Below, one piece after another: positions 7,136 to 64,000 of a stretch of DNA of 64,000 bases. Both the position numbers and the translations under genes were made by a program. This stretch comes from Pedinophyceae sp. YPF-701 (Eukaryota; Chlorophyta; Pedinophyceae). The stretch is taken from NCBI GenBank assembly GCA_916048055.1, contig CAJZHL010000023.1, forward strand, positions 158,318 to 222,317. Direction: 5' to 3'. Below the pieces are notes generated by a model. It worked only from the letters and a program-made list of their open reading frames with translations. It was not told the origin of the DNA and made no database searches. Each line of letters starts with the position of its first letter. Position 1 is the first letter of the stretch.

Positions 7136-10100
7136 ATGGTGTCCACGAGGATATCGAACATCGGGACTAGTCTCACGTATGTCAAGGGGCGGCACATTGC
7201 GGTGTCGGAGTCCCTCGGGCTCGAGATCTCGGAGGTGCTGGAGTGGTCGCGCTGGACGCCTGGGGCAGAGCACGTCAAGTCCATCACGCTCAAGAACGTC
7301 TCCTTCGACGTCATCAAGATCAAGTACGGCCTGCCGTCCACGCGGTACTTCCAGATGGACTTCCCAGAGCCCGTGAGGCTCTCCCCGGGTGCGCCTCGCC
7401 TCCGCCCGCGGCCCTCGCGACGCGCACGAAGCGCCCCGGCCCCCCCGCGGCGCCGCACGCGCTCCGCACGAACCACAGCGAGCGTCCGCGCCACGAATCC
7501 CCGCGCGTTCCCGTCCGTAGAGCGCGCTGTCGCCGCACGCATGTCACGGGTACCTTCGCTTCGCTGCGAGCGTCCCGCGCCCGCCGCGCCCGGCTCGCTC
7601 GGGCCCGGGAACGCCTCCGCTGACGCCGCCGGGGTCGTTCCTGCGCGTCGCGCGTCGCTTGAGCGCGCTGGTCCGCGCTGCGGCGCGCGGCGGGCGCGCG
7701 ACGGGCGCCATGCTGCGTGCACCCCCGCTGGCTTCCCCCACAGCCGCGGAACACGCCGGCGCTGCCGCGCTCCGTTCCGTACGCGCACCGCGGCATCGCG
7801 TCGCTGCGTCGCGCGCGCCGCCTCGCGCCCGCGCGCCGCGCTGCGTGCACCTGCAGCCCTGCGCAGGGCCGTCGCGGGCCCCGCGAGGCCCCCCCGCTGC
7901 CCCCGCGCGCTCCTTACGAAGCGACACGCGCGTGCGCGCCCGGCGGAGCGCTCAGCGGCCGCGCCCGCCCGCGCCCGCGTCGCAGGAATGACGGCAACCA
8001 TCCCGGTCATCTTCTGCCCGACCAAGCTCGTGCCCTACTCGGACGCGGTCCAGTTCAACACCACGAACGGCTCCTTCGCGATCCAGCTCGAGGGCACGCT
8101 CCCGGAAATGGACCTCCAGATGCCCAGCGAGCTCGACTTCGGGTACACGCCCTGTCTGGAGCCCAGCCGGAGGCACCTACGCGTCCGCAACGTCGGCCGC
8201 GCGCCCGTCAGCATACAGTGGAAGGTCCCCGAGCCGTTCCAGATCGAGCCCGCCGAGGTGCGCGCCCCGCGGCCCCGCACGCGCCCCGGGAGAGCGTGCG
8301 AGAGAGAGACGGAAAGCATGCGACGCCCCGTTTTCGCCCGCGTGGTCCGCGCAGGGCAACATACAGCCGGACCGCGAGCTCGTCTTCAACGTGGTCTTCG
8401 AGCCCCCGGACAGCAGCGTGTTCAGCGCGGCGGCGGTGTGCATGATCCGCGGCGGACCTTCTATGGTCACTCGGCTCGCCGGGATTGGGAAATACCCCTA
8501 TCTCCGCCTCGAGCGCTCAGTCCTGGACTTCAGAGAGGTGCCCCCGGGCACCGCCGCCGCCGCGGACCTCCACCTCGTCAACGCCTCCGTCGTCCCCGCG
8601 CGCTTCGCGATCTCCGAGGCCGTCGGCGTCCCCGGGCAGCCCCAGTTCGAGGTCGCGCCGGACGAGGGCGTCGTGCCCGCGGGCGGCAGGCTGCCGCTGA
8701 CCGTGAGCTTCCGGCCGACGTTCACGACGGAGCAGAAGGTGTCGGCGACGTTCCACGTGCAAGCGCAGGGCGGCAACCGCGTCGAGCTGCAGCTCCGCGG
8801 CGCTGCCGTGGGGCCGAAGGTGGCGGTGAACACCAGCTGCCTCAACTTCGGCGACGTGGCCGCGGGGCGGCGCGCGCGGCGCGCCTTCATGCTGCAGAAC
8901 CTCTCGAAGGTCCCCGTGACGTTCCAGGTCGGCGCGGACCCGCGCGGGCTGTTCCAGCTCGACACCCCGGGGGGGGTGTTGGGCCCCAAGGCCTCCCTGC
9001 TCATCAACGTGGCCTTCTGCCCGAAACACCCCTCCCAGTACTGGCGCCGGCTGCCCGTGCTCGTGCGCGACCTCGTCGACCCCGTCTCGATCGACCTCAT
9101 CGGCACGTGCCACAACGACACGTGGCACCCGGATCCGATCTCGGAGTGGCACGTGGACCTCGCGCTGGGGCGGATCGCGGGCCCCCCGCGCGAGATCTTC
9201 GTCGCGTCGGACATGCCGAAGGTCTTCACGGAGGCCTCCGGCGCGTTCTCGCCGCGCCGGAGCGGCGGGACGGACGGCGGCGGCAGCGTGGCGGCGCCGC
9301 TGGTGGTCCGCGACGCGTGGTCGTCGTACTTCCGGACGAGCGTCGAGGCGGACAACGGCGCGATGCGCGTCGACACGTCGGTGGTCGACTTCGGGGCGTC
9401 CTCGCGGCTCCGCGCGGCTCCGCAGCGCGTCGTCACCGTGACCAACACCGCCGCTCAGAAGCTCGCCGTGTGCTGGCACTGCCCCGCGGGCGCCGAGGAG
9501 CGCGCGCCGGACGCGCCGCCGAACCCGAAGGCGCTCATCGCCGGCGGCGGCGCGCCGCCGGGGCCGTTCCAGGTGTTCCCAGAGGCCGCCGACATCCCCC
9601 CGGGGGGCTCCGTGCAGTTCCGCGTGCAGTTCCGGCCGCAGCGCGACGCGGCGTACTACGCGTCGACGCTCGAGTGCTACTGCCAGGTGAAGCAGGCGCT
9701 CGTGTCCTCGCTCGTCACGGGCACCGCGCAGCCGGGCCAGTCGCTGTCCCTCGCGATGATCCCGCCCCCCGGCGTGCTCACGGTGCGCGCCGTCGGGCAC
9801 ACGTTCGGGCAGGGCCGCCAGGAGAGCCTCCCGATGATCTCCGTCGGGAGCCCCGCGCGCGTGGACTTCCCCGCCGTATACATGGGCGCGGTGGCGCACC
9901 AGGTGTTCCCGATCACCAACTCGGGCAAGACGGCCGTGTCGTACACGGTCGCGGTGGACCGCGTGTCGGCGTCCGCGGGCGTCTTCGCGGTCACGCCGGA
10001 GCACGGCGTCGCGGACCCTGACTCAACGACGCTTGTCGCGGTCCGGTTCCACGCGAAGGACGCGCGCGCGTACGCGGGCAAGGTGACGGTGACGTTCAAC

Positions 10101-13097
10101 GGGAACAAGGACGCGGCGCAGACGGTCGCGCTCGCCGGCGCGGGGTACCGCCCCGTGCTGCAGATGGGGGAGGGCGGCGCGGTCTACCTCAAGCCGACGT
10201 GCGCGGGCGCGGTGAGCCACACGCGGATGACGCTGCGCAACCCGTCGCAGGTGCCCGTGGCGTACGCGTTCCAGGTCCCGGACGCGGCGCGCGGGCTGGT
10301 CGCGGTCGACGAGGAGACCGGGATGGTGCCGCCGGGGCAGGCCGTGGCGGTGACGTGGACGTTCGCGCCGCGCCGCGCGCGCACGTACGCGCTGCAGGTG
10401 CCGTGCCTGCTCACCGCGCCGCACGGCGCCGTCGATGCGGAGACGGGCGCGCCGCTGGAGGAGTCGCAGGTGCTGAGCCTCGTAGGGGAGGCGACGAGCG
10501 GCGGCGTGCAGGCCACGCCGGACAGGCTCGACCTCGGCGTCGTGCGCATCGGGCACCACGCGCAGGGCGGCGTGTCGCTGTACAACGCGTCCCCGGGCGT
10601 GCTGCAGTACATGCTACGGTGCTCGCGCGTCCTCCCGGACGGCTCCGAGGAGCCCGCGCCGCCCGAGGAGCTCATCCCCTCCGAGGTCGAGGGCTCGCTT
10701 CCCGGGCGCGTCGCGAAGACCGTCATCTTCACGCTCGGCCCGCGCGCGCGCGAAATGTACACGTACCGCGTGCGGTGCTACACGTCGACGGGCGCCGCGC
10801 CGGGCGGCGGCAAGCACGCCGCGGGCAAGCACGCCGAGCCCGCGACCGTCTTCGAGGTCCTCGCGGAGGGCCAGCACCCGATGCTCCAGGTGCAGGACAT
10901 TCTGGCGTCGCCGCTGCAGAAGTCGGCCGCGTGGGACCTCGCCGAGGTGCAGCTCATCAACCAGCACCTCGCGCTCCCGCTCACGCCGGAGGAGCTCGCG
11001 ATGGTGGAGTCGCTCGCCATGGGGCACGCGACGGTGCAGGACGTGCTCGGCGCGGTGGCGCCCATCCCAGTCGGGCTGCCGGCGGGCCGCGCGGGCGGGC
11101 CGGCGTCGGTGGTGCGGCTGCTGCTCGGGAACACGAGCGACCTGCCCGTCGAGTGGAGCGCGAGCCTCCCGAACGAGACCGACATCGATATGGAGCACTG
11201 GGTGCAGCCGCGCTACCCTCCCGACGAGCTCCAGGCCATGGAGCACCTCTTCGCGCTGTCGCCGCGGAACGGCAAGATCGCGCCCGGCGCGACGCAGGAG
11301 CTGACCGTGCGCTTCGAGCACGAGGCCGCGGGCCTGCGGCGGTTCCCGGTCCTGCTGACGGTGGCCAACGGCAAGTGCGTGCGGCTCGACTTGATGGGCC
11401 GGACGCTCCCGGCGGGCGAGAAGACGCTCGCGCTGGGCGGCGAGATGCGCCACGAGCTGCAGCCCGTCGAGCTCGGCTGCGGCGCGCCGCCGGCGCAGGC
11501 CACGATCCTTTACAACGAGGGCGTGGAGGCGGTGACGTACGAGATCGACACGACGCCGCTCGCGCAGCTCGCGGCGGAGAACCACAAGTTCCCCGTCCTG
11601 GAGCTGCTCTCGCCGGCGGCCGGCGCGCTCCCCGCGGGCGGCCACGCGGTCCTGTGGTGGAGCTTTACGCCGATCGAGGAGGGGACGTACGTCAGCGAGC
11701 TGCCGGTGCGCGTCGAGGGCGGGGAGGACGCGCTGATCGTGGTGACGGGGAGCGGCGTGCTGCCGGCCGCGCCGCGGCCCCCGATCGACGAGGTGCTGGA
11801 GCCGGCGCGCGACCTCGTGACGGCGCTGCGCCCGGACGTCGTGGCGGAGGTGGCGCCGGACGCGGTGGGGTTCCCGGCGGCGGGGCCGCCGGAGCTGAGC
11901 GACCCGAGTCTCGCGCGGATCGGCGGCGGCGCGGACGCCGCGGGCGCGGGCGCGCGGGCGAGCTACGGCGGCGTGATGGGGCGCGGAGAGAAGCAGCCGT
12001 TGCCGGCGCGCGTCGAGGCGGTGACGGCGCTCGTGGAGTTCTCGCGGATCACGGCGCCCGGGCAGATGCTCGCGGTCAGCCAGGACGTGATCACGTCCGG
12101 GCCGCTCGCGATCGGCGGCGTGCAGACCAGTATCCTGGTGTTGCACAACGTCTCCGACGTGCATGTCCGGTACGCGTGGACGCTCGGGGACTACGCGGCG
12201 TCCGCGGCCGCGAAGGGGCGCGACGCGCTGTCCAAGCGCGCGAGCAGCGTGGACGCGCTGTCGGACCGCGGGGGGGAGGAGTTTTCCCTCTTCGACGGGG
12301 GAGTCGAGGTGGAGCCCCGCGGGGGCACGCTCAAGCCCGGCGAGCGCTGCCTGTGCCGCGTCAAGGTTACGGCCGGCGCGCGCGCGCTCGTGTTCGACGG
12401 CTACATGAAGCTCGTCACCAAGAAGGAGCCGCACTTCACAAAGCAAAACGCCCCCGGTGCGCCGCGGCTCGACCACTCCCTCGCGCTCAGCAACACGGCC
12501 AACCTGAGCCCGCGGCAGAAGAGGACGCTCCTGCGCGGCCCGCCCAAGTCCGGCGTGCTCCCGCTCGACGTGAAGCTTGCCGGCGAGCCCGACGGCGGCG
12601 GCGGCGCCGCGGCCGCCCAGGCCGGGAGGGCCGGCGGCGACGACGAGGACGAGGAGGGCCAGACGCTGCGTGTGCGGCTGCGGGGCACGGTGGACGCGAC
12701 GCTGCCGCTGGCGCGCAACGTGGAGAGGGAGTGGCAGCTGATCGCGGGGTCCTATGAGCGGGGTGCTGCCGCCGGGGGGGGTCTCGACGTCGGCGCGGGC
12801 GTGTCGGCGGACGAGCTGGCCGCGGCAGTGCGCGCGGTGCTGTCGGACGCGCTCGCGGACCTCGCGCTGGACCCGGAGGTGTATTGCAAGGCGCTGACGC
12901 AGCCCGAGGGGGGGGAGTCTGGGGAGGAGGAGGAGGCGGCGGGCGACCGGGCGCGCGCGGCCGCGGAGAAGCAGGCGCTGCTGCTGGAGGCGGAGCACTT
13001 TGCCGCGGGCGTGCTGGAGGGCGCGGTGGCGTCCCTGCTCATCGAGAGCGTCATTGGGGCCTTCCCGGCCGGCACGGGGAGCGCACGGGCGCCGTAG
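7136..13097 (+). CDS. CFAP65: CFAP65-like flagellar ASH/MSP-domain protein
   Basis: Three exons (7136-7388, 7986-8257, 8355-13097) give 1,755 residues, close to the usual CFAP65/CCDC108 size of about 1,900. The N-terminus contains LGLEISEVLEWSRW and a KSITLKNVSFDVIKIKYG beta-sandwich start. It is followed across introns by SPG-MTATIPVIFCP, matching the pattern of CFAP65, an axonemal protein needed for flagellar assembly and motility. Many ASH/MSP-like immunoglobulin folds follow, recognisable by repeated signatures such as LNFGDVAAGRRARRAF, VDFGASSRLRAAPQRVVTV and VDFPAVYMGAVAHQVF. The last 200 residues are acidic and helical. Both introns use GTGCGC donors and were placed by conserved phase. 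It implies that the organism makes flagella. The family level (ASH-repeat ciliary protein) is firm; CFAP65 rather than HYDIN or CFAP47 is judged from the N-terminus. Confidence 0.85.
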
Positions 13098-13411: not shown

Positions 13412-16400
13412 CTACGCAGCTGCGCTCAGCTCCGCGCGCGCGCCGCCGCCGCCCACGAGCGTCGACGCCGTCTTCAGGGCGTCCACGACCCACCACAGCA
13501 CGCGCTGCGCGTCCACGCCGCCCACCACCGTGCCGATGCTCCCGGGCCTGCCATGCGCCATGCGCACCAGCCAGGTGTTGACCCGCTGAGCGGTATCTGG
13601 GAAGAGCCACGTGAGCACGGAGAAGGGCTTGTGCAGGATCTTGACGACGGGCTCCATGCCGTTGTCCGCGTGCTCCGACGCCGCGACGCCGTCCACGATC
13701 AGAGGCAGCCCCGACGCCGTGTGGATGCTCCAGACACCGAGCTGCGAGAGAGACAGGCGCGGTGACCTCAATCAGCGGTTGCGCATTGTTTGCGTGTGAG
13801 TGAGTGAGTGAGTGTACTCGCAGCAACCACGCGCGTAGGCAGGACCAACCGCCGTGTGGTCAATGCCAAGAAACACATTGAAACACTCTCATGATGGTTT
13901 TAAAAAGAAACAAATAGAAACAACAACCAATCAATCCCATGAGCAGAAACAATCAGGCCTCACCTTCTCCTCCACGCGCACCGTGTCCACGACGTCCCAC
14001 ACCGTCCCGGACGGCACCTGCCCGGCCACATCGTCGTCGTCCGCCGCCCCCGGCAGCCCGTCGCGCAGCACAGGCACCTCCCAGCCCACGCGCACCGCGT
14101 CCGCCCTCACCCGCCGCGCCGCGCCGCCCGCGCTCCGCGCGATCAGGTAGTGCGACGCCGTCACCGTCACCCGCGCGCCCGCCCGCGTCGTCACCTCCAC
14201 CGACAGGGCCTTGCGGTTCGGGCCCATCTGACCGAACCACGCGATGCGCGAAAACAAAACAGTCCCCCCGGGACCCTGCACGGCGACCATGTCGCCGATC
14301 CGGGCGTCCTCGACGGGGGTCCAGCGACCAGAGGGGCCGAGCAGGCGCGCGCCGCCCGTGAGGCAGCCCTCGCTGGAGCTGGGCGGGGCGGGACAGCTGT
14401 CAAGGTACCCGACGCACTTGTATCCGTCGAACACCGTGGGGCCGATCGCGCAGTACTCGTTGTTGATCGGGCACTTGGTGCGGTACGAGCTGATGGCCGC
14501 GCACTTCGTAGTGTCTCTTCCGGCATCCTCGCACGCACGACTCGCGCAAAGCGAACCTGCGTGACACCGACGGCTGCCGCGGCACAGCTCAGTCAGGCGT
14601 GACGAGCACAATGGGGGTGTGCATAATGGGGGTGTGCATAATGGGGGTGTGCATAATGGGGGTGTGCATACCGTGAAACCATTTGCAAACGCGCTGACCG
14701 GAAACGACCTCGGCGTGGCACCTGGACTCGCTTGTGAAGGCGCGGCATGGCGACACGCCGGGCGCGAGCTGCAAGCTCCTTTCGCGCCCGGGCGCGCGCC
14801 CCTCGGCCAGCAGCTCCTTCAGCAGCGAGCGCTCGTACTCCTCGTTGTCGATCCGCACCGCCTCGGATTGCCTCGCGCCCGACAGCACGTCAGGTGCGAG
14901 CTGCGCCTCGCGGCGCGCGCGGTCCCCGCCGCCGAGGCCCAGCATCTTCCGGACCAGGCGCGAGCTCTGCGCCAGCACCACGCACGTCGCGCTCGCGGGC
15001 GGGCACGCCACCGCGCCGCTCGCGGCCCGCGCGTCCCACGCCACGACCTGCCACCCGTCCGCCGTCGCCACGGACCGCGAAAACCGAGCCGCCACCGGCA
15101 CGCTGCTCAGCCGCTCCGTGTCCACGCGCACCATGTGCCTGCGCCCGCCGCCGCTCATCATCGTCTCGACGTGGTGCCTGTCCATCGAACCCACGTACGC
15201 GAGCTCGTCGTCGCCGTCAGCGCCCAACTCGAGGAGCCGCGCGACCTGCGCGCGCGCCGCAGTGAGCGTCTCGGCGCCGCCGGGCGCGTCAAGGAGCTTG
15301 CGGCGCCCGCCCTGCGTTGCCGCGACCTCCGGCGTGCCCTCGCGAAGGTGGATGGGGCACGTGCAGTCGTCGCTGTCGACGTCCATGGACGAGATGGCCG
15401 ACCCGCAGTCCAGCCGGTACGGCGCTACGGCGTCACTCTCGCCCTCGACGGCGCACATGGCGTCGATCCAGCCCTGCGGCGCGCTGAAGACGCCCGCGCG
15501 GCAGTCGAAGACGTGCGTGGTGCTGCGGACACGTGGGCGCGCCGGAAACAGGTCAGTCGCGACGTTCACGTGACAGCGGGAATTTCAGGGTTTCCGAGCG
15601 GTGTTTCCAGAGCGGGGGGGTGTTTTGGGGGGGTTGAGGGTGTTGCACCTCTTCCACTCCATCTTCACGAGGCCGCCCGTGTTCTCGCGCGCGAGTTGCG
15701 TGAACCACTCCTCGGCCTGCTTGCACGTTGCGGTGGCCATCATCCTCCCGACGGAGGTGGCGTCCTGCTGCAGCCCGCGGCGGCTGCGCCTCCGGCCCTC
15801 CTTTGTCGCGGCAAACGTGACCGAGCCCAGCGACGCGGCGGTGCGCACGGGCGTCGAGCCGGAGCTGCTCAGCAGCACGCCGTCGTCGCCCACCTCGACC
15901 TGCACGCGGTTGCGCACCCGGTTGCAGACGGCACGGTGTTGACACGTGTGTGCCGCCCTGGTAGTTACCATATTTAGGAGATGCGATGCGCGCGCACGCG
16001 GGGGTTGCGACGCGCGATATCGCAGCCGCCGCGGCGAATGCAAGCTGCCCGGCGCGGGCGCGCACCTCCTTCGACAGGAGCACGACGGCCACGACCAGCC
16101 CAGTCATGCACGCCAGCAGAAGGAAAAAGAAGACTACGGAGCCGGCGATCACCCGGCGCCAAAACGTGCGCTCGGTGCGCATGTTCTTGTACGCCTGCGC
16201 GGTGCGGGGAAGGGGGCGCGCGGGTGAGCGGGGGGAGCCGCTGGCGCATACTGACCTAGCAGTGGGGGGCGGGTTGCGGGGCGAAGGTGGCGTGTGGGGC
16301 GGGCGGGCGCACGTGGTAGGCTTCCACGAGCTCCGTGGCGTCGACGTGGCCGTCCTTGTTCCTGCGGGCACGCGTTATATGCGCAGGGGGCGGTGGGGAA

Positions 16401-16650
16401 TGCGATTACATTGACCTCACGTTGACGCCGCCGCAAGGGCCGGAAAATGCCTGCAATGGCGCGCTTTTGGATGCTTGGGAACGTACCGGTCGAACAGGCT
16501 CAGAGCGCGCTGCATCTCGGAGCCGTTCGGTGCGTCCAGGGCCAATTGAATGATGGAGGTGCCCTTGGCCGGCAGGGGCTTCGGGCCCTCGCCCGAATGT
16601 CCCTCGCGGGGCAGACTGGCCCGCTCGGTGGCGTCGTCGAACGCGGTCAT
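13412..16650 (-). CDS. EF-hand / single-pass membrane / hedgehog-type Hint (Hog) protein
   Basis: Seven minus-strand exons (16487-16650, 16313-16361, 16012-16194, 15649-15899, 14672-15522, 13964-14556, 13412-13741) join with consistent phase into 806 residues. Residues 54-65, split by an intron, form one canonical EF-hand loop (D-x-N-x-D-G-x-V-D-x-x-E; DRNKDGHVDATE). A strong membrane segment follows at about 86-110 (VIAGSVVFFFLLLACMTG). A long soluble region then has an RRSRRG site and a cysteine-rich stretch at about 480-555. From Cys564 (GCLTGGARLL) there is a Hint domain: the T-x-x-H block is at 632-635 (TVTASHYLIA), and the last exon supplies the hedgehog-like end GVWSIHTASGLPLIVDGV. There is no His-Asn pair as in inteins. 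Hint domains cleave the chain at their N-terminal Cys. By inference the EF-hand is cytosolic and the rest lumenal or extracellular. The 15900-16011 intron boundaries are the weakest. Confidence 0.75.
14611..14671. repeat. 15-bp tandem repeat at the 5' end of a Hint-gene intron
   Basis: About four units of ATGGGGGTGTGCATA on the plus strand. On the gene's strand the predicted donor GTATGC at 14671 lies at the edge of the array, so the intron begins with the repeat. Unit number could vary between individuals. Confidence 0.85.
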
Positions 16651-32759: not shown

Positions 32760-35700
32760 CTACGCGAGCAGCAGGTTCAGGTTGTACGCCTCGATCCGTC
32801 CGCCAGCCCCCGCGTCCCCCCTCGCCGCCACCGGCGCGCTCACTGCCCCCCGGGACACCCCCCCCTCGTCCTTATACACCCCCGCAGAGTACGCCACTGG
32901 CGCCGCCTCCGGCGGCGGCGGCGGCGGCGGGTCCGCAGCAGGCGCTGCCGGCGCGCGCGGGGCCTGGAAGTACGCCCCCGCCTGCCCGTACCACCACCCG
33001 GGGGGTCCGCCATAGTCGGCCGGGACTCCCCCCGGGACTCCCCCCCCGCCGTATCCCGGCGGCTGCATCCACGGCCCGGGCGGCGGGCCGTACGGCCCCC
33101 AGCCGTGGTAGTACGCCTGCGCCGCGTGCGCCTGCTGCGGCGCCCACGCCCCGCCGTGCGGCGCCTGGGCGAACGCGAACCTCTCGCGTGGCGACGGCCG
33201 GTCGCGCGCCGCGGCCTCCTGCCGCGCGTGGTCCTCGACCCACCGCGACACGCGCACCATGCTCGCGTCCTGCGGTATCGTCGGCACCGGCCGCGCCTGC
33301 GACTGCGCGAACCGCCGCGGCGCTGGCTGCGGCGGAGGGACGGGGACGGGTGGCGGCGGGGCCTGGCTGGCTGGTGGCGTGGCCGCGGACGCCGTGCTCG
33401 GCGCGGCGCTCGGCCAGGCCGGCTGCGGCGCGTGCTGCGCGTCCCCCGCGTCGCGCCGGGCCGCCGCGGGCGCCGCGATGTCGCTCGGCGCCGGGGAGAG
33501 CTGAGAGCTGCGGCGACTGAAGCGCTCGCTTGTGGCGCGCGCGTGGAGCATCTGGCGGACGAGCTCCGCGTCGCGCGCGTACGGCGACGGCGTCCGGCGC
33601 AGCGGCACGTCGGCCAGCCCGCTGTCGACGTCAGGGGGGGGAGTGTTAGGGGCCGGCGGGGCAGCGGTGGCGTCGTGCGCGGCGCGCTGCCGCGCGCGCA
33701 CCGCCTCGCGCGCCTCGCGCAGCGCAGCGGCCTGCTTGTCCTGCCACGCGCGGTCCCGCGCCTCGGCGACCGCGCGGGCGTGCGCGGCGGCCTGCGCCGC
33801 CGCCGCCGCCACCGCCTCTCTCTGCGCCGCCTGCGCCTCCGCGGCCTTCTCGCCCCCGCGCAGCCGGTCCAGCTCCATATCCAGCCTCGCCAGCGACACG
33901 CGCAGCTTCTGCACGTCCACCGACAGCGCCGCGCCCGCCTTGATCGGCCCCGCGACGCCGCCCGCGGGCGCCGTGATGTCCTTCGGCGTCCGACTCAGCC
34001 CCTTCTTCGCCGCGCGCTCGTCGATCTTCCGCAGCTGCCGCAGCAGCGCCTCCTCCTCCGCCGACACCCCCGTGAACCCCGCCGGCAACACCCCCTGCTT
34101 CCCGCGACCGCGCGCGGATGCCGCCCGCGCCTGCCGGTCCAGCGCGCGCTCCTGCGCCGACTTCGGCCCCAGCGCGTGCCGCCGCTTGATCCGCGCCGCC
34201 TCGGCCTCCTCCCGGCCCCGCTCAACAACACCCCCCGCGCCCTCTCTTGCTTTCGCCGCCTGCGCCTTCAGGCCCGATCGGATGCGGTCGCGCTCCGCCT
34301 GCTCGCGCGCGGCCCGCTCGCGGGCCTCCTGCGCCGCGCGCAGGAAGCTCCCCTCGCGCTTCAGCACCCCCTCGAACCCCCGGTCGCCCTCCCGCATCAC
34401 CCCGACCAGCTCGACCGACTCCGGCGGCGGCGCTGACGTCAGGGGGGGGCGTTCCGGGGACGCGGCCGGCGGCGGGGCCGCGGACGACGACGCCGTTCCT
34501 GGCCGCTCGGCCGCGCCGGCCCGCGGCTCCGCGTCCGGCTTGCCGTTTGTGTTTGCATCATCCTGGGGACTTGTTGCCTCCTGCGATGGGTCTTGGTGTT
34601 GTTGCTGTTGCTTCGGAGGTCGCGATTTCGCGGCGGACGGCGCGCGCTTGTCCTCCTGCGCCCTGCGGCGCTGCTCGCGCACCGCCAGGTACGACCCCTG
34701 CCGCCCGAGCGGGCCCATGATGCCTGACGTGGCTTTCACTCCCCCCCCGCCAAGCGGCCGGTCCTCCGGGGTCCTCGCGCTCAGCCGCGCCGACGCCGGG
34801 CTGTCTGCGCGCCGCTGCGACGCCCGCGACGACGCCCGCGACTGCCCCGCCGCCGCCGCGCGCGCCTTCGCCGGCGACGGTGACGCCCGCCCGCGCCGCT
34901 GCACCGACGCCGGCTGCCCGCGGGTGCCTGCTCGCGCACGACGGCGCACGCTCGGCTTCCGCGCGACGCCGTCCGCCGGCGCGCCCGGGCGCCGCCGCCC
35001 CGGGGTCGTCCGCTTCGCGGACGGAAGCACCGCTGTTCGAGGATTGCTATTTCCTGCCGCGCCCCGAGGCATATCTGATTTGCTGGCCGGAACGGGCTGC
35101 ATCGGAGGCGGCGCCCACGGCGCCGCGCCGGTCGGCGCGGGGCTCGCGTACCGCGAAGACCCCGCCGTGACGGGCGAGGTCCCCGTGCCCGCGTGCTGCG
35201 GTGGCAGCCAATGCAGCTGCAGCGGCGGAACGACAGCGGCGCCTCCGCCGCCGCCAGTCGGCGCCGGCCCGCGGGCGCCCGGGGCCGCGCCACCGACGCG
35301 GCGCTCGGTGAGGCTCACCTCGGAAATCGTCGACACCGCGCCGACGCTCCCGCGCGCGGGGTCGTGCCGCGACACACCCCCCTTGCCTGACGCGGCGGCG
35401 CGGGGGGGGTCCGCCTTGCGCGGAGACTCCCCCCGGCGCTGCGCGCCCGCGAGCGCCGCGCTGTCGCCCGCCGCGGTCGTCGTCGAGCGGTCCGCGGACG
35501 CGCCGACGTCCGGCGCATCCAACCCCCCCCCCTCCTCCGAGTCTGTCGCCTCCCGTGCCCTTGGTGTCTCTTGCCTGGGCTGATGAGGGGGCTGCGCGAC
35601 GCCCGTGCCGAATTGGAGCCAGGGGAAGGCCGCCTGGAGGCCCTGCGGGTCGATTGCGAGGTCGCCGTCGCCCAGGTCCGCGCCCGACTCCTCGCGCGCC

Positions 35701-37800
35701 GGCAACATCGAGGAATCGCTATTCACCGCCTCGCCGGTATCTCTCGACTGGTTCGAGCGCCTGCTGCCGTGGCTCGCCGCGGCCCCGCCCGCGCCCAGCC
35801 GCTCCTCCGACGTCTCCGCGTCCGGCGTCGGCGCCCCGAGCAGGATCTCCGGCGTGGGGGGGGGGTTCTCCGCGACACCCCCTCCGCCGCCGGGTCCCAC
35901 CCCCAGACCGCCCCCGCCGCCGAACTGGAACGACGCGAGCAGCGCCGCGCCCGCCGCCGCCTCCGCGAGGTGCCGCGCCAGCGTCTCGTCCGCCTCCTTG
36001 TCCCCAACACCTCCCCTCAGAGACAGACTCGACAAGAGAGCCCCCCCATTCCACATCCCAAGGCTCGCCAGCGCCGCCTCCGGGGACGCCGGCCGGCCAG
36101 GCGACGCGCTCGGTCGCCGGCTGCCGTCCGGCGTCGCCACGCGCTGCGGCGCGGGCGGCTCGGGCTCCGGCGCTGGCGCTGGCGGCGGCGCTGGGGGGGC
36201 CGCGAGCGGGGAGCGCATCCGCGCCGCGAGGTGCGCGATGCGGCGCGCGGGCGAGTTCGGCATCGTCGCCTCCGACCCGCCCTCGCTCTCGCCCGGCGCG
36301 CGCGCCGCGGGCCCGGGGGGGGGGACTTCGTCCTCCACGCGGGGGGGTGTGAGAGGGCGCGACTCCTCGATCGAGTCCCCCGCGACCAGCGGAGTCTTCC
36401 GGAACCGCGCCGCCGACACGACGCCTCGCCGCAGCCCCCCCTTCGTCTCCAGCTCCTGGTACGCCTCCCCCTGAGACCCCCCCTCAACACCCGCCCCCTC
36501 CGTCGCCCCCGCAGGCGCGCGGTCCGCGCCGGGCTCGGCGCCCGCGGCCCCCATCAGCAGCCCCTGCAGATTCTGCTCCGCCAGCTCCCGGATCCGGCCC
36601 CAATCCACCCCGGACTGCGCTTTATTCGACGCAGGTGCCGGCGCTTGTGCCGTCGTGCCGTGCGCGCCCCGGCCTCCCGTGCCGCGCGCGCCCGCCGCGT
36701 CCGTAGACGGCGCCGCCTTCCTGTGCCCCGCGGGGGTCGCCGGCACGCTCACGCTCACGCGGACTGCATCTCCGTTGCCGTCTTCGTCGCCGCGCTGCGG
36801 GCTGCCGTCCGCCGAGCCGCGGACCATCGCCTTCTGCTTCCGGATGTACGCGCGGAGGTCCTCGCGCCACTGCGCGCGCCGCTGGGCCGTCTCCGGGTCG
36901 CCCGCGCCCCGCGGCGACACTCCCCCCCCCGCCGCGACGTGCCCCGTGCGCTTGCGCAGGAACTGCCGCTTCGGCTCCGGCGGGGGCGTCGCGGGCGACC
37001 TCAGATACCTGCGCGGGCGGGCGGTGTCTGCGCGTGTGAGCGTGCTCGGCGCGCGCGCGGGGCGCCGGCGCGGGTGCCGGGGTGCGACGCGCACCTGTCC
37101 TGTGCTTTCCGGGCCTTGCGTCGCGCCTCGAGGGCCTCCTGCGCGCGCTGCGCGTCCTCCTCCTCGCGCTTTCGACGCTCCGCGTCCGCGACCCTGCGGG
37201 AACGGCGCGGGCGGTGAGCGGGCGCCGATGAAGCGATGCGCGGCGCGGCAGGGTGATGCAGCGTTTGCGCGCTGTTCGGGCCAAGATGGTGCCAATCTGC
37301 CAAATCTGCGTGTTCATCATGGTATGGACTATATATGAGGGGTGTCTTGTGGATGTGCGCGGGCGCACGGCGGCGGTGCGGGGCCTGAGCACTTGAGCCA
37401 TCTGTTGCGTCGCTGAGCTGCTCTGGCGGCTCGAAACGACGCATGAATGGTTCCTTGGTACTGATATGTACCGGAAAAATCTTCGCGTCGCATCGGGGCG
37501 AGATGAAGCGTCGCGACGGGGACGTGCGCGGGGCTGAGGGCCTTTGCAGGCGTCCTGTGCGGCCAAAACGACCCCTACTCGGCTCTTCCATTCCGCTACT
37601 CTAACCTCAAAGCATCCGACCGATATGAGGAATGCCCGGAATGCAAGAAACCACGCTCAGCGCCCTCGAGCGCCCCGCCGCAGCCCCCCGTATCCCTCCG
37701 CGGCCTGCGCGGCGCCCTGGGCGGCGTACCTTCGCCTCCGCGCGTTCTCCTTGGCGCGCTCGCGGAGCCGCAGCTCCTGACTCGCCCGCAGACCCGCCAT
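32760..37800 (-). CDS. Large low-complexity coiled-coil protein (1,472 residues)
   Basis: Exons 37730-37800, 37095-37193 and 32760-37008 join in phase. The start MAGLRASQELRLRERAKENA opens a charged helix that continues over two introns (RRVADAERRKREEEDAQRA) into YLRSPATPPPEPKRQFLRKR. A conserved-looking patch AQWREDLRAYIRKQKAMV follows. The middle is Pro/Ala/Ser-rich with several short basic coiled coils (for example KREGSFLRAAQEARERAARE and LSVDVQKLRVSLARLDMELD). The C-terminus is rich in Pro, Gly and Tyr (YYHGWGPYGPPPGPWMQPPG). The pattern resembles centrosomal or ciliary scaffold proteins, but I cannot name a family. The last exon of more than 4.2 kb has no in-frame stop. A long open frame on the opposite strand (33532-35583) is a shadow of it. 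Confidence 0.7.
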
Positions 37801-39370
37801 TCTTCCCTCACCACCCACCAACCACTTAGCTCTGAACGCACATTCCCTCAGCTCCTATCTCCGCCGCGTCCGCAACGCCTCGAACCCCGCGCGCCCGCGC
37901 TCCGCCGCCGACCCGGCAGCCAACCGCCCACGCAAGGTCCAGGCGCGCGCACGCGTCCGCTGCGCCCGCCAACGCGCCCCCCAGGGCCGTCGCTCCCCGG
38001 TGTTGTGCACACAGGAGGGTCTCGTGGCCGATTCTACCGTCGTTTCCGAGTCTAGCGCGCTGAAATCACTGCCAGGCGGCAGACTGTGCCCCAGGCCACG
38101 CGTACGGGCGGCAAACGGCCCCGCGGAGCCCGCACCGGCGCGCAGACACGCCCCCGCGGCCTCGGCGATCCAGCCCGACGGTGCGTTCTACCGAACCCGC
38201 GCGGTATAATACGAGCCACCTCCCGCCTGCGCTCTCCGCCGCAGTCTCGATCCGGGAGCGCGGCGAATTCCACGTCAGACCCGGTCGTCGAGCGGCAGCG
38301 GGCGGCCGCTGTGTCGCGCCACGCACAGGCACGGGCGCCCCCCGGCGCGCCGCAACGTGGTGAATTGGCGCCACAAGGCCGCAGATGCACGGACGAGCTT
38401 GGTATTGACCGCCTCGCGCCCGCGGCGCGATTTGCGTCCCACCGAGACGACGTGGCGGGGGCCTGGCTTGATGCCGGGCAGTCAGGTGTGTTCGGGGCGC
38501 CCGCCCGCCCTCCGTAGGGCCCGCGCTGCTCGGTCGATGCGCAGATCTTGCCGTCGGGAGCACTGAGGGACCGATTTCGAGCTTCGTTTTGTAGGTACGG
38601 TCCGCCGTACGTGCGTTGCGGACACGGCGAGGGTCCCATGGTGCATGCCGCGTGCGGGGCGCAGATGGACCCGGTGCCGCGTTCGGCGGGTGTTCCCGCG
38701 GTGAATATCGCTGGAGATCTCCGTTGCCGCGCTTTCGCCCGACGGATTTCGCGTATCGGCACAAACGGCCGGTGGTCGGTTGAGGCTGGCGCCCGCGCGC
38801 GTCGCCTCGCTGCGCCCGCGCGCCCGCTGCGCGCCCGTTCGTCGCACCACATTTCCTCCGCCGCTTCCAGCGCCGCGCGACCGCGCCACGGCGCGTGCGC
38901 ACCCGCGTCGCGCCACGCTCACTCGTCCCGGCTCCGTCTCGTGCCCGCGCAGGGCTCTCTCAACGGTATCTCGCCTGGCGCCGCCACGCCAAGCCGCCTG
39001 CCGCGCACACGCGAAACCCGTGACGCCTCGCGCGCCATGCCGAACGCGGACGCCCCTGGCCACACGCCCACCACCTCGGCTGGCCTGGGCGACGTGCCTG
39101 CGCGCGGCATGCTGCGCCCGCCGTCCGGCTCCCGCCGCCAGGTGCGCGAACGACCCATTCGCCGCGACGGATCGCTCCGGGCCGATGCGGCCGGCGCGCC
39201 CCACCGCGCGCTCCCTCGCGCCTCGCGTCGTCCCAGGCCAACCGACCGCGCTGTCCCGCCGCGCGGCGCGCCGCGAAGCGGGCGCGCGGGCGCGCTTCGG
39301 GTTCCCGCGAAACTGAATTGCCGAACGCGCGGACCGACGCGGCGCGTGCTGCCGCGTGCTGTGCGCGCAG
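37801..39370. other. Divergent intergenic region of about 1.6 kb
   Basis: Between the coiled-coil gene start (minus) and the sucrose synthase start (plus). Long open frames here are Arg-rich and overlap on both strands, so I treat them as chance. No element identified. Confidence 0.35.
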
Positions 39371-42300
39371 ATGAGCGTGCAGGGCCAGGAGGGAGGCGAG
39401 CCGAGTGAGTTCACGACCATGGTCCAGGCGGTCATGTCGTCGCAGCGCAACGTCATGTGCGCGCTGCTGCAGCGCCTGATCTCCATCGGACGCGTGAACC
39501 GCGGCATCCTCCTCCCGCACGTCCTGGAGGACGAGCTCCACGACATCGTCAACAAACAGGCACGCGCAGACCTGAATCCTCGACTCCCAGCCCACTCTTC
39601 CTCTCCGCGCGCGTCCCCACCGCCCCCGCCCCCGCCGCCCGCCCCGCAGGACTCCGGCCACGAGCTCCTGTCGTCGGACTTCTTCCTGACGTGGAAGCAG
39701 TGGGCGCAGGAGGTCGCGGTGCTCGGAAACAGCATCATTGTAGCGCTGCGGCCCCAGGTGGGGCTGTGGTCGTACGTGTGCCTCAACGCGCACTCGATGA
39801 GCTGCGAGGACATCACTGTCTCGCAGTTCCTGCGCCTCAAGGAGCGCCTCATCAAGCTCGAGACCGAGGAGGGGAAGCCCGTCGTGGAGAACAAGCTGGT
39901 CAGTCTCGCGGACGACCCGTTCACGCTCGAGATCGACATGGAGCCGTTCAACAACGACTTCCCGAAAATGACGCGCTCGTCCTGGATCGGCCAGGGCGTC
40001 CAGTTCCTCAACAGGTGCGCGCACGCGCCGTGACTCGACCACTGATGTCTTCTGTTCCGTTCCCACGCCGCGACTGCCCCGGCTCTCCCCTGCTCCCGCT
40101 CCCACGGCCAAAATATTAAATCATTCCGCTCGGCCCGCGCAGGTACCTGTGCGCGCAGCTCTTCGGCGCGCAGCGCGCCCGCAGCACGTCGGCGTCGTCG
40201 GTGGCGGTGCAGTCCTTCGACATGCTCCTGGAGTTCATGCGCACGCTCGAGCACAAGGGCGAGTCGATCCTGCTCGACCCCGAGCGCATCAAGACGGCGC
40301 GGCAGCTCTCGACCGCGCTCGCGCGCGCGGACCGCGTCCTGAACGCGCACGACGAGCAGCACGCCCACGGCGACGAGCGCCACGAGAAGCACGCCGTGCG
40401 CGCCGTGATGGCGCGCCTCAAGGACCTCGGCTTCCAGAACGGCTGGGGCAACACCGTCGCGCGCATCCGCGAGACGTTCCACCTCCTGCAAGATCTGATG
40501 CAAGCGCCCGAGGAGTCGACGCTCAAGAACTTCCTCGCGCGGCTCCCGATGGTGTTCAGCGTGGTCATCATGTCCCCGCACGGCTTCTTCGGGCAGTCGG
40601 ACGTCCTCGGGCTCCCGGACACGGGCGGCCAGGTGGTATACATCCTTGACCAGGTCAAAGCGCTGGAGCGGGAGATGGCGCGCCGGATCCACGAGGCCGG
40701 GCTCGACGCGACGCCGCGGATCCTCGTCGTCACGCGCCTGATCCCCGAGGCGCGCGGGACGACGTGCGACCAGCCGCGCGAGAAGATCCACGGATGCGAG
40801 CACTCGATGATCGTCCGCGTGCCGTTCCGGGACGGGAGCGGGATCGTGCGGCCGTGGGTGTCGCGGTTCGACGTGTGGCCGTACATGGAGCAGTTCACGC
40901 TGGACGTCGCGAGCGAGGTGCGCGCGGAGCTCGGGGGGAAGCCCGATTTCATCATTGGCAACTACAGCGACGGAAACCTCGTGGCGAGTCTCCTGGCGAC
41001 GCGGATGGGCGTGACGCAGTGCAACATCGCGCACGCGCTGGAGAAGACCAAGTACCCGTACGCGGACATCTACTGGATGAACCAGGAGGAGAAGTACCAC
41101 TTTTCGTGCCAGTTCACTGCGGACCTGATCGCCATGAACACGGCGGACTTTATCATCACGTCGACGTACCAGGAGATCGCGGGGACGCGGGACACCGTCG
41201 GGCAGTACGAGAGCCACCAGCACTTCACGATGCCCGGGCTGTACCGCGTCGTCAAGGGCATCGACGTCTTCGACCCCAAGTGCGTGTTCCTAGTACTAGT
41301 ATTCAAACAAAAACCATCATTCCCTATTTGTTTGTGTTTTTTTTCTCCCCGCTCTCTCTTGATTGTCGTGCGCCGGCTGCGTGCGCGGCGATCGCAGCGG
41401 GCAGCACGCGCGCCCCGCCGTGTGCGCGCGCCGCGCCTCCGCTGCGCACGTTGCCGAGTGCGCGCTATGTCTGCGGCCACGCGCAAGCGCGATGTGCTCT
41501 TCCGCGCCGACCGGCACCGCATGGCTGCTGCGCCGGACGCGAGCCCCGTCGCGGCGCGCTGCCGCGGCCGCGGACGCGGTCCCTGCCGGCGAGTGGGCGC
41601 AGCTGTCTCGCCGCGCACACACACCCACGACGCAGCGACGCGAGACTGCCCTCTGCGCCGTTTGCGGGGCCTCCGCGCTCGCACGCTGCGCAGCCGCTCT
41701 GCTGCAGCCCGGCACCACCTCTCAGCGCGCCAACGCACCACCTAACCCCGTCGCCGCCGCACGCGCAGGTTCAACATCGTGAGCCCCGGCGCGGACCAGG
41801 AGGTCTACTTCCCGTACACGGACAAGGAGCGCCGCCTCACGGCGCTGCACCCGGAGTTCGACGAGCTGCTGTACGGCCCCGAGGGCGACGGGCAGACGGC
41901 GGTGGGCTACATCAGCGACCCGAGCAAGCCCGTGCTGTTCACGATGGCGCGGCTCGACAAGGTGAAGAACCTCACGGGGCTCGCGGAGTGGTACGCGCGC
42001 TCCGACAAGCTGCGCGAGCTGTGCAACCTGGTGATCATCGGCGGGGTGGTGGACCCGGACAAGAGCGGGGACCGCGAGGAGCGCGACCAGTGCGAGCGCA
42101 TGCACGAGCTCGTCAAGGTGCGCGCGCAGTCTCCGCCCGCACGGCCCTCGAACTGCCTGTTTCTCGCGCCCTCCGTTGCGCAACTTGTTTCGGCCGCCGG
42201 GATCTCGGCACGTGGCGCCGTCTCCGTCCGCCGCCCCTCACGTGCGGCGCCGATGCCCGCCTCGCGTGCACGCAGAAGTACGACATGCGCGGCAGCTTCC

Positions 42301-43181
42301 GCTGGATCGTGAAGCAGACCAACCGCGTGCGCAACGGCGAGCTGTACCGGTACATCGCGGACCGCCGCGGCGCGTTCGTGCAGCCCGCGCTGTACGAGGC
42401 CTTCGGGCTCACCGTGATCGAGGCCATGACGTGCGGCCTCCCGACCTTCGCGACCAACCGCGGTGGTCCCGCCGAGGTGATCAAGCCGGGGGTGTCTGGG
42501 TTCAATATCGACCCGTACCACGGCGACCGGGCGGCGCAGATGATGGCGAACTTCTTCGAGCGCTGCCAGCGGGAGCCGGAGCACTGGGACAAGATCTCCA
42601 AGGGCGCGATCGACCGAATCATGAACAATTATACCTGGGAGATTTACGCCGACCGGCTGCTGACGCTGCAGAACATCTACTCGTTCTGGGGCCACGCGAC
42701 GCGCCTGGCGCGCACCGACGCGCGGCGCTACCTCGAGATGTTCTACATGCTCAAGGTAACACCCCCCTGAGGCTTTTCAGCACTCCCCCCCCCCGTTTCC
42801 TGTGGTTTCGAGGGGCCTGTGCGCCGGATCGCGCATGCGCGCAGCGCGTGGCCGTCGCGGCCGACACGCGCGTTCGCGTTTCCTCGTCCGCGCGCGCAGA
42901 TGCGGCCCCTGGTCAAGACAGTCCCCACGGTGGACCGGCAAAACACCCCCTCCATCCTCGAGACGGCCGGGCCGCTGCACGGCGCGGAGGACTGCGGCCC
43001 GCCGATGCACGACGTGACGCCCTCGGGCGCGACGTCCTTCCCGGACCGTCGCTCCTCAGGCCTCATCGCGACGTCGGCGGGGAGGGCGGTGCCGAAGATC
43101 GCGACGCCCTCCGTCGACGTGAACGACCCGCACCTGCCGCTGTCGTCGCCGTCTTTCAACCGCGGGCTCCTGCACCTGTAG
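39371..43181 (+). CDS. SUS: Sucrose synthase
   Basis: Reversibly converts sucrose and UDP to UDP-glucose and fructose. Exons 39371-39559, 39650-40014, 40143-41279, 41769-42117, 42276-42755 and 42900-43181 give 933 residues, about 120 longer than typical plant enzymes. The N-terminal regulatory half includes [20 protein letters not shown] and [14 protein letters not shown]. The GT-B glycosyltransferase part includes [17 protein letters not shown] (about 346), [54 protein letters not shown] and the E-x7-E motif EAFGLTVIE (Glu at about 721 and 729). The extra C-terminal exon adds about 94 unrecognised residues ([18 protein letters not shown] onward). The first intron appears to start with GC (CAG|GCACGC), although an in-phase GT site lies 12 bases upstream. 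Sucrose synthase is uncommon in chlorophyte algae. Confidence 0.95.
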
Positions 43182-49847: not shown

Positions 49848-51806
49848 CTACCTCCTCCTGACAAGCCGCGCCCCGCCCCCTACCTGCTCGTCCCCCTCCG
49901 CCTCCACGCCCCTCACCTCCACCACCGACCCCTGCCCGTCACCGTACACCCCGTACTGCTTGTTGCCGCGCACCCAGCCGCGCTGGACATGCAGGTGCGC
50001 GCCGCCCGCCACGTGGATGCCGTTCGTGAGGTTGTCGTCGCAGATGAGCCCGTCTGCGTCCACCTTGGTGCCGGCGAAGGTGGCGCAGAGCCCGTTTTGC
50101 TTGTTGTCGCACAGCCGCCCGCTCACGTGCAGCTTCGCACCACGGGCCGCAGTCGCGCCGTGCCTGTCGTTCGCCTCGCACACCACGCCCTCCGCCCGCA
50201 CCTCCGTACCCTCGTCGGAAGCGCACACGCCGCTCCACTTGTTGTTGCACAACCGCCCGCTCGTGCAGCTTCGCACCACCCTCCACCAGCCGCGCCTGCG
50301 TTACGCCATTCGCCTCGCACACCGCGCCCTCCGCCCGGCCTCCGCCCCGTCGCCGATGGCAAACACGCCGGCTGTCCTTGTTGTTGCAACCGCCCGCTCG
50401 TGCAGCTTCGCACCGCTTCTCTCCGCAACCGCGCGGTGCTTGTCGTTCCTCGCACCGCCCTCCCGCCCGCACCTCCGTGCCTTCGCCCGCTGCCATACAC
50501 GCCGCTCCGCATTTGCTGCGGCTGCCCACCCCTCAGGTGCACCTTCGCGTCGCCTTCTCCGCGGCCGCGCCGTGCTACAATTCCTCGCACGTCACGCCCT
50601 CCGCCCGCACCTCCGTGCCCTCGCCGCTGCCAAGCACGCCGCACTCCTTGTTGTTGCACAGCCGCCCGCTCACGTGCAGCTTCGCACCATCCTGCGCAGA
50701 CGCGCCGTGCTTGCTGTTCCCCTCGCACACCACGCCCTCCGCCCGCACCTCCGTGCCCTCGTCAACTTATACACGCGCTGCACGTGTTTGTTGCACAACC
50801 GCCGCTGCAGCGTCGCACCACCCTCCGCATACGCGCCGTACTTGCTGTTCTCCTCGCACACCACGCCCTCCGCCCGCACCTCCGTACCGTCGAAAGCGCA
50901 CACGCCGCTGTCCTTGTTGCTGCACAGCCGCCCGCTCACGTGCAGCTTTGCTCCCTCCACCGCAGCCGCGCCGTGCTTCCCGTTCCCCTCGCACACCACG
51001 CCCTCCGCCCGCACCTCCGTCCCTCCATCATAAGCGCACACGCCGCTGTCCTTGTTGTTGCACAGCCGCCCGCTCACGTGCAGCGTCGCGCCGCTCTCCG
51101 CACATACGCCGTCCATGCCGTTCCCCTCGCACACCACGCCCTCCGCCCGCACCTCCGTCCCCTCCCCCTCCACTCTCAGCCCGTCCCCGCTGTTTCCCGT
51201 GAACGCGCACCGCTCCATCGTCACCTCCGCCCCGCCCATGACCTTCACGCCACACCCGCCCTCGTCCTCGTTGCCACCCTCGACCTCCATCCCCGCGCAG
51301 CCCCCATCCACTCGGCACTCCACCATCCGCACCTCCCGCGCCCCGCACACCCTCACCAGCGCCTCAACCCCCCCGCACCCCTTCCTCACGCCACCGCGCA
51401 CCACATCCACCCTCTCCAACCGCGTCCCGCTCGCGCCCGCCTGCACCTCCACCGCCACGCCCCGCAGCACGCCATTCTTCACCGTCACGGGCTGCAGCAG
51501 CTCCACCACGCTTCCCTCCTCCCCGACCACCGACCGCCCCCCCAGGTCCACCACACCCCCGGGGCCCTTGGACGCCATCAGCGACCGCAGGTCGTCCAGC
51601 GTGCACTCGCGCGCGTCGCCCGCGCCCGCGCCGGAGCCGCCGCGCGACGCCGCCATCTCCGCCCGCATCGACTCCAGCATCTCCTGCGTGCGCGCCTGCG
51701 CCTCCTGCTGTTGCTGCAACATCGTCGCAAGGTCTGCATTGTCCACTCGCGCGCGTTTCGCGGGGCGTGACGGGCCCGCGCCGTCGCCCGAGGACCCGGC
51801 CGTCAT
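49848..51806 (-). CDS. Right-handed beta-helix repeat protein, array copy 1 (frame interrupted)
   Basis: From ATG 51806 the protein starts MTAGSSGDGAGPSRP and has a nuclear-signal-like PAKRARVD and a Gln-rich coiled coil (MLQQQQEAQARTQEML). A conserved CTLDDLRSLMASKGPGGVVD leads into stacked short repeats. Each full repeat is about 46 residues (two turns), for example GTEVRAEGVVCEGN followed by LHVSGRLCNNKDSG, with regular Cys and Asn positions that suggest ladders in a parallel beta-helix. This copy is open for about 345 codons, to roughly 50770. Several frame changes lie between about 50280 and 50770, and the C-terminal 140 residues are open again in another frame down to the stop at 49848. 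It is either a pseudogene or carries sequence errors. Function unknown; such folds often bind carbohydrate or other proteins. Confidence 0.6.
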
Positions 51807-52116
51807 CGTGTCTGGTGTGCCGTCCCGCGTCGCTCGCTTAGAGTCGTTCCGTGTGCGATCCTGCGCCCGGACAGATGGTGCACTGGGGAATCACCGGCCA
51901 GGGGGTCGCGCAGGTGATTCAGTAGCGCGGCTCGCACAGCGCGCGAGTCTGCACGCGACACGCATGATCCAACAAGCGCCCACCCGTGACCCAGCGCCTC
52001 TCCACCACGCCGCACGCCAGCCCGAGGCGGTGGGCGCTAGCAGTTGGCGGGGCTCGCTCGCACGTCGCAGCAATCACCGCACGCATCGAGCACGCCTCGC
52101 GCCCGTGCTCGCATCA

Positions 52117-52593
52117 TCAGTCTCTCACCTCACCGCACTCGGCAAGCACGCCAGTGCGACCGCCCGGCCCAATTTGCGCACAGCCTCTTGCACAAGGAAC
52201 CTGCTGCAGCGCTGACGTGCAAACGGTCGGTTCGCCGCCCTGACAGCCTCGAGTGACAGCATGTATCCGCCGCACGCGCCCTCGTCGCCGCCCGCGCCTC
52301 TGCGAGCGCGCACGGCACGTCCCGCGACACACACCCCCACCTGCTGTGTCAGGCCCGGCCGGGGCAAAGGGGCGCCGGGGAACATGCAGAGGAGCCGTGC
52401 GTGTCGGTGCGGGTCTGGCGCCGCCCTCCACCACCGTCCGCACGTGCGCCCGCTCCTCGTGCGTCGTTTGACCCCCAATGTGCAACATGAGGCCCATCGC
52501 CGCAGAATCGGTCGCAAGCCCGCCCAGGTGAGCCCGAGCCGCAGCGCCGTGCTGCGCCGCGCAGGTGCCGCGCCCGGGACCCATGCAATGCAC
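52117..52593 (-). other. Conserved open segment upstream of each array gene (possible 5' exon)
   Basis: A minus-strand frame beginning MHCMGPGRGTCAAQHG and containing MGLMLHIGGQTTHEE recurs upstream of every unit, at 54702-55187, 57618-58094, 60215-60700 and 63099-63572. A donor-like GAG|GTGAGA at 52129/52128 and an acceptor GCGCAG|GATCGC at 51860 would join it in phase to the beta-helix frame. Against a simple exon, copies differ by 2-base indels in the middle of the segment. It may therefore contain an intron or be non-coding DNA that is similar only because it was duplicated. Confidence 0.3.
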
Positions 52594-52823
52594 GTGGCCT
52601 CATTGCCTTAGCGCACAACCCTTGCTGCGTTGTCATCATCGTCGCCCAGCACAGCACAGCACCTGCCGCGCACGCCGCCCCCACGCACATCAGCCGCCCG
52701 CCCGCGCTCAGCGGCTCAGAGCCCGCCGCCTCACATGCACTCATGCTCACAGTCCGCCCCCCTGCAAACCACGCAGCAGCCCACAAGCATTTGCCACCCA
52801 CACTTGCAGGCCCGGCGGCCCGC

Positions 52824-63785: not shown

Positions 63786-64000
63786 CTACCTCCTCCTCAC
63801 GAACCGCGCCCCGCCCCCCACCTGCTCGTCCCCCTCCGCGTTCCCCTCCGCCTCCACGCCCCTCACCTCCACCACCGTCCCCTCCCCGTCAACGTACACC
63901 CCGTACTGCTTGTTGTTGCACATCCAGCCGCGCTGGACATGCAGGTGCGCGCCGCCCGTCAAATGGATGCCGTGCTTGAGGTTGTCGTCGCACACGAGCC
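63786..64000 (-). CDS. Right-handed beta-helix repeat protein, array copy 6 (cut by window edge)
   Basis: Only the C-terminal 71 codons are inside the window: LTGGAHLHVQRGW, MCNNKQYGVYVDGEGTVVEV and the basic tail FVRRR, ending at the TAG at 63786-63788. It differs from the other five copies at several residues (for example VDGEGT where they have GDGQGS), so it is a more diverged member. The 213-base gap to the upstream segment of copy 5 matches the other gaps of about 220-230 bases. Confidence 0.6.
   Translation of the reverse strand, partial: LVCDDNLKHGIHLTGGAHLHVQRGWMCNNKQYGVYVDGEGTVVEVRGVEAEGNAEGDEQVGGGARFVRRR

Follow-up and report, generated by a model that had tools for sequence, protein, structure and literature searches.

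The window, by which we mean the whole 64,000-nt stretch of DNA analyzed here, carries between positions 13412 and 16650 of its minus strand a gene that we spliced by hand from seven exons into one open frame of 788 amino acids plus a stop codon. The encoded chain contains an EF-hand loop, a single membrane helix, a long and partly Cys-rich region and, at its C-terminus, a Hint domain, and it is this combination that we describe below. The Hint gene and a plus-strand gene for CFAP65, a protein of motile cilia, lie tail to tail, the CFAP65 gene being a single open frame of great length (7992-13097); among PDB chains CFAP65 scores 525.7 bits against FAP65 of 7n61, which we take to be a Chlamydomonas structure, and 300.7 bits against 9ijj, these being the only two CFAP65 compared. 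Farther along are exons of a sucrose synthase with SUS_N and EPBD domains (39341-42755), where the stretch 40120-41289 has 3s27, Sucrose synthase 1, as its best PDB match (445.8 bits) followed by 4rbn (426.8 bits), and other exons in the window match Mago nashi, a prenyltransferase of the undecaprenyl-diphosphate-synthase type and glycerol-3-phosphate dehydrogenase. This gene content fits a flagellated alga and makes an origin in the green lineage likely. An open frame of 1517 codons on the minus strand (32763-37313) has a coding score of 326 bits over 32763-36992 and matches no Pfam family at E<=0.001. The last part of the window, 50001-64000, is apparently a tandem family of repeat-rich proteins: all four minus-strand frames tested there (from 50823, 52836, 55423 and 60927) match the right-handed beta-helix, arrays of ~138-141-bp repeats occupy 50100-62131, and the GC skew is -0.25 to -0.36 in every 2-kb bin past 50 kb, seven in all. 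A tblastn search of the window with the Hint protein found no paralogue, with matches outside the gene at E of 0.9 or worse.

Table 1. Exons, selected introns and Hint-domain residues of the gene, in positions of the window.
Feature	Position	Strand	Remarks
Exon 1	16487..16650	-	Residues 1-54: start codon, N-terminus predicted to be cytosolic, helix leading into the EF-hand loop
Exon 2	16313..16361	-	Exit helix and the part of the EF-hand loop (D54-E65) that lies past the exon 1/2 junction
Exon 3	16066..16194	-	Basic stretch and membrane helix (~residues 86-112, 16072-16152); donor 16066, alternative 16012
Exon 4	15649..15899	-	Juxtamembrane, predicted lumenal/outer; basic site RRSRR (151-155)
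Exon 5	14672..15522	-	Ectodomain, cysteines at 205-378 and 457-477; donor uncertain (14722 by gene finder)
Intron 5	14557..14671	-	Contains a 15-bp tandem repeat
Exon 6	13964..14556	-	Cys-rich stretch and bulk of the Hint domain
Intron 6	13742-13963	-	Interrupts the Hint domain
Exon 7	13412..13741	-	Final Hint strands, motif J-like VDGVAASE, C-terminal adjunct region
Hint domain	13661..14365	-	Cys546 to ~706
Cys546 (predicted catalytic)	14363-14365	-	Preceded by Gly545
T614	14159-14161	-	TxxH
H617	14150-14152	-	TxxH
Q591	14228-14230	-	Column of hedgehog Asp303

The six introns are 115-222 nt long, all have GT...AG borders, and the acceptor is GCAG in every one of them. With a codon score trained on the open frame of the neighboring CFAP65, each of the seven exons scores above zero in frame (totals of 0.7 to 99.2 bits), and third-position GC is 0.87-0.95 across them. 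The weakest scores are those of exon 7 (0.7 bits), exon 2 (9.3 bits) and exon 1 (9.6 bits), and exon 4 has 0.43 bits per codon in frame versus 0.37 in one antisense frame. At the start of intron 5, abutting the splice donor, lies a 15-bp repeat of 4.3 copies with 98% matches (14606-14670); if this intron were retained, the frame would run through MHTPI repeats and stop after 27 codons, so that a Hint-less isoform of 508 amino acids is possible. TGTAA is a polyadenylation signal of green algae. One copy of it is located 146 nt 3' of the stop codon of the Hint gene, out of six in the window on both strands, and it weighs little as a signal here because another copy lies on the same strand inside intron 1 (16410) and none was found within 400 nt 3' of CFAP65.

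The full protein matches the Pfam family PF01079 (Hint) over residues 540-706 with E=6.7e-11 and 42.6 bits, against a curated cut-off of 29.7 bits. Exon 6 by itself reaches 35.5 bits, and the chain from Gly545 to the C-terminus, with exon 7 spliced on, reaches 42.9 bits, a rise that supports the exon 6/7 junction. The offsets from the first Cys to the Thr and His of the TxxH motif, 68 and 71 residues, are the same as those of C258, T326 and H329 in Drosophila Hh, and the alignment to Drosophila Hh, the sequence of which was verified against PDB 6td6_B, runs without gaps from Cys1 to beyond TxxH. In a local comparison with the Drosophila Hint domain the score was 74, which none of 2000 shuffles reached (maximum 60). 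The single-sequence search of PDB chains gave a hedgehog match that was not significant (E=0.18 for the full protein and 0.096 for the Hint piece), and single-sequence folds, with a mean pLDDT of 34.1 for exon 6 and 39.9 for exon 5, were too low for use. As judged from its sequence, the Hint/Hog domain is homologous to that of hedgehog, and it is likely to form a thioester. An earlier note on this DNA had proposed a Hint domain, with a profile search as the test, at the end of one gene of seven exons; the match to PF01079 above the curated cut-off bears out the first point, and the 788-residue open frame, the GT-AG introns and the optimum of a gene finder (see below) bear out the second, with a difference at the exon 5/6 junction. 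The Cys and the TxxH that it named are present, but its numbering of them as Cys564, T632 and H635 changes to Cys546, T614 and H617, a shift of 18 residues that fits the use of donor 16012 for exon 3, and the VDG that it saw near the end belongs to the motif J-like VDGVAASE.

Two residues specific to the hedgehog active site are altered in this domain. The column of hedgehog Asp303 (D46), which sits in a gap-free part of the alignment anchored on either side, holds Gln591, with no acid or His anywhere in residues 583-600, and the motif J Cys400 of hedgehog is replaced by Glu702 (VDGVAASE). According to the available parts of PMC9163320 and PMC13060885, Asp303/D46 activates the sterol hydroxyl, the D303A/D46A mutants show no cholesterol transfer while thiol cleavage still occurs, several D303 mutants are more efficiently cleaved by DTT, and the D303H variant retains activity, so that replacement of Asp303 is not always fatal. 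If the Hint domain and the adjunct region behind it nevertheless placed a sterol on Gly545 in the manner of hedgehog, the protein would be anchored at both of its ends. When the protein is aligned pairwise with Drosophila Hh by MAFFT, the alignment reaches near the C-terminus with 27% identity and matches W and AL in the adjunct region, in line with such a transfer, but the adjunct region by itself does no better than chance against the Hh sterol region, its local score being attained by 220 of 2000 shuffles. A hedgehog-like sterol recognition region, which we considered, is thus not recognizable above chance, and with the cholesterol-activating base and Cys400 replaced as well, sterol transfer of the hedgehog type by this Hint domain is doubtful and we regard it as unlikely. 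The Hedge signaling domain is absent from the Pfam matches, which were taken up to E=1 for the full-length chain and E=10 for pieces and from which the filters of HMMER drop most weak matches. The same two replacements could also mean that the Hint domain no longer cleaves and is kept for structure or binding alone, which we consider improbable since Cys, Thr and His of the N-S acyl shift and the preceding Gly are all retained.

The coherence of the locus as one gene was assessed with a gene finder that uses codons and splice sites, with weights of our own choosing, and is blind to protein families. Its optimum is a single seven-exon gene with a score of 273, the hand model scoring 255 under the same scheme, and the two models share exons 1, 2, 3, 4 and 7, the start of exon 5 and the end of exon 6. 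They differ at the exon 5/6 junction (14672/14556 by hand versus 14722/14489 by the gene finder), where the choice of the gene finder drops a Cys-rich stretch and leaves 749 amino acids. Twenty control sequences simulated from dinucleotide statistics score -0.8 to 10.0, and the opposite strand scores 65.3. The chain is unchanged at intron penalties of -9, -12 and -15; at -20, exons 1 and 2 are lost and the optimum begins at a Met within exon 3, and at -5, two extra introns appear within exons 6 and 7. The extra intron of exon 6 would delete 60 nt of the Hint domain, ending at Q591, and was rejected because the residues, when retained, give the exact hedgehog spacing. For exon 3, donor 16066 is chosen at all five penalties and is therefore preferred over 16012, which was judged poorer and is the one change of a single junction within ~120-130 nt that adds exactly 18 residues.

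These scores also bear on a division of the locus into two genes, one for the Hint domain and the other, made of exons 1-4 or 1-5, for a short EF-hand/membrane protein. The read-through of exon 5, which stops 27 codons into intron 5, could end such a first gene, the TGTAA of intron 1 is on the same strand, and no homologue was found in the collections scanned. A Hint gene starting alone at Met 15458 in exon 5 reaches a score of 206, and this start (MCAVEGES...) shows no signal peptide by eye; a start beyond exon 5 reaches 105.9, and the Hint frame has no in-frame Met from the stop near 14818 to the Hint domain. Frame and splice sites, on the other side, agree from the first exon to the last. 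By the scores of the gene finder a single gene is the best reading, suggesting that the EF-hand, the membrane helix and the Hint domain are likely encoded together, and we consider two genes distinctly improbable.

The EF-hand loop, D54-E65 (DRNKDGHVDATE), fits the canonical 12-residue pattern and is assembled across the exon 1/2 junction. No match to the pattern occurs in the unspliced six-frame translation, and a junction-spanning loop arose in 6 of 200,000 random GT..AG splices, the gene's own sites included. The Pfam model EF-hand_1 scores 20.4 bits with the full protein and 23.4 bits with residues 1-114, both under the cut-off of 25.4 bits, and no second EF-hand was found in the 788-residue protein, which has one loop and one stretch per EF-hand model. 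A Hint protein without the EF-hand, with the exon 3 Met (16182) as the true start and exons 1-2 non-coding, would suit this Pfam score, the low coding scores of the two exons and the optimum at penalty -20, but is very unlikely because a perfect loop forms exactly over the predicted junction, exon 1 has an in-frame stop upstream and an A at -3 of its ATG, and both exons are kept at penalties of -5, -9, -12 and -15.

The sole strong hydrophobic segment of the protein spans residues ~86-112, with a 19-residue hydropathy of up to 2.93, and is the only one above 1.6; the N-terminus is hydrophilic by eye. The net charge is +4 at residues 71-85 and -4 at residues 114-128, from which the N-terminus is expected in the cytosol, and the protein is thus predicted to be of type II (signal-anchor), with the EF-hand cytosolic and the Cys-rich part and the Hint domain lumenal or outside. 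In this topology the membrane would separate the EF-hand from the Hint domain. The call is weaker with the alternative exon 3 donor, with which the charge after the helix is ~+1 by eye. The predicted lumenal part contains no N-glycosylation sequon and so gives no help to the topology; the sole NxS/T of the protein, at residue 42, falls in the part predicted to be cytosolic. Since the EF-hand is single, below the Pfam cut-off and predicted to lie across the membrane from the Hint domain, calcium sensing through it is only possible. For residues 112-453 and the Cys-rich residues 454-544, Pfam returned no interpretable family (best E=0.083 and 0.2, respectively). Basic sites are found at residues 151-155 (RRSRR) and at 399 (RARR).

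The perfect EF-hand loop at 54-65, the membrane helix at 86-110 and the basic site of the earlier note all agree with these observations; its idea of a self-releasing surface protein is not supported by them. The predicted helix is N-terminal to everything outside, so that the predicted cleavage before Cys546 would free the Hint fragment, and the ectodomain, as part of residues 1-545, would stay in the membrane. To set the ectodomain free, a separate protease would have to act, possibly at RRSRR or RARR as a candidate site. The note had also called the layout convergent with hedgehog; this fits the rest of the protein, for which no similarity was found, and does not fit the Hint/Hog domain, which is homologous.

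For the topology, the cleavage, the fate of the thioester and calcium binding, we infer a Hog-family precursor with a type II anchor, a reading to which we give an even chance of being correct. The N-terminal 85 residues, including the one EF-hand, would be on the cytosolic side, and residues ~113-545, which are partly Cys-rich, together with the C-terminal Hint domain would be translocated into the secretory pathway. There, the folded Hint domain would use Cys546, T614 and H617 to convert the Gly545-Cys546 peptide bond to a thioester, which may give way to water or to a nucleophile lacking the hedgehog mode of activation. The Hint fragment of 243 residues (546-788) would then depart, and residues 1-545 would remain membrane-anchored with a new C-terminus, the EF-hand letting cytosolic calcium act on this anchored part. 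One could go further and suppose that, with sterol activation lost, the thioester is passed to another acceptor (water, a glycan, or a wall or lipid hydroxyl) and that the cytosolic EF-hand couples calcium to the processed ectodomain, which we offer as a long shot. If true, this would be an algal surface-anchoring or signaling layout made from a hedgehog module. Hog domains are scattered among eukaryotes behind unrelated N-termini, and their roles are mostly unknown; a protein that keeps the thioester residues, has lost the sterol-activating Asp and has an N-terminal anchor could be a clean case for the ancestral Hog reaction, posing the question of what Hog chemistry was before its use by animals in cholesterol transfer.

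Scans of viral and prokaryote contig collections for relatives of the protein, and a tblastn search of phages with exon 6, found none; because the collections are viral and prokaryotic and only close relatives are within reach of such scans, the result has little bearing on algae. With animal hedgehog (Drosophila Hh 258-471; PDB 1at0, 6tyy and 6td6) the protein shares the Pfam family, the Gly-Cys1, the TxxH spacing and the motif J region. It differs from animal hedgehog in that the Hedge domain was not found, Asp303 is Gln, Cys400 is Glu and the sterol region is at chance level. Inteins carry a C-terminal Asn splice motif. The present protein, unlike inteins, has no C-terminal extein or Asn splice motif, and the Hog-type motif J and adjunct region run to the stop codon; what it has in common with them is the Hint fold and, as described in part of PMC9163320, the N-terminal thioester chemistry.

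Hint domains are spread widely over the eukaryotic phyla and for the most part have no known function, as stated in PMC5784728. In algae, the available part of PMC12803021 reports more than 290 genes with IPR001767 in the diatom Pleurosigma pacificum and 112 in Seminavis robusta, expansions that resemble the present case in having Hint in algal proteins, and PMC9812998 describes, in the part available, kelch-Hint fusions in Cyanidiales, again an algal Hint fused to an unrelated domain, the partner there being kelch. According to the accessible text of PMC2362128 (Burglin 2008), Hog domains occur in dinoflagellates, apicomplexans, red algae, mosses and a Glomus fungus, and also in a cercozoan, a cryptophyte, a jakobid and a haptophyte. 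Their N-termini are conserved within groups only, and in motif J the Cys has often given way to another residue, to Ser, Thr or Asp in moss and red algae as compared with Glu here. In the same text, Hog proteins whose start Met can be placed with fair confidence open with a good signal peptide; GmGIN1 and Hoglet are named as having other N-terminal domains, and GmGIN1 as having no signal peptide. Our search for literature joining "Hint domain" and "EF-hand", which lay outside most subscription journals, found none, and the N-terminal arrangement of what is likely a real gene is without precedent in the literature searched, the swapping of Hog partners being already known. Unlike the Hog proteins in the available part of PMC2362128, the present one has a predicted type II anchor and an EF-hand, apparently in place of the signal peptide; like those of protists, red algae and mosses described there, it carries its C-terminal Hint/Hog domain behind a lineage-specific N-terminal region of the kind that often contains Cys.
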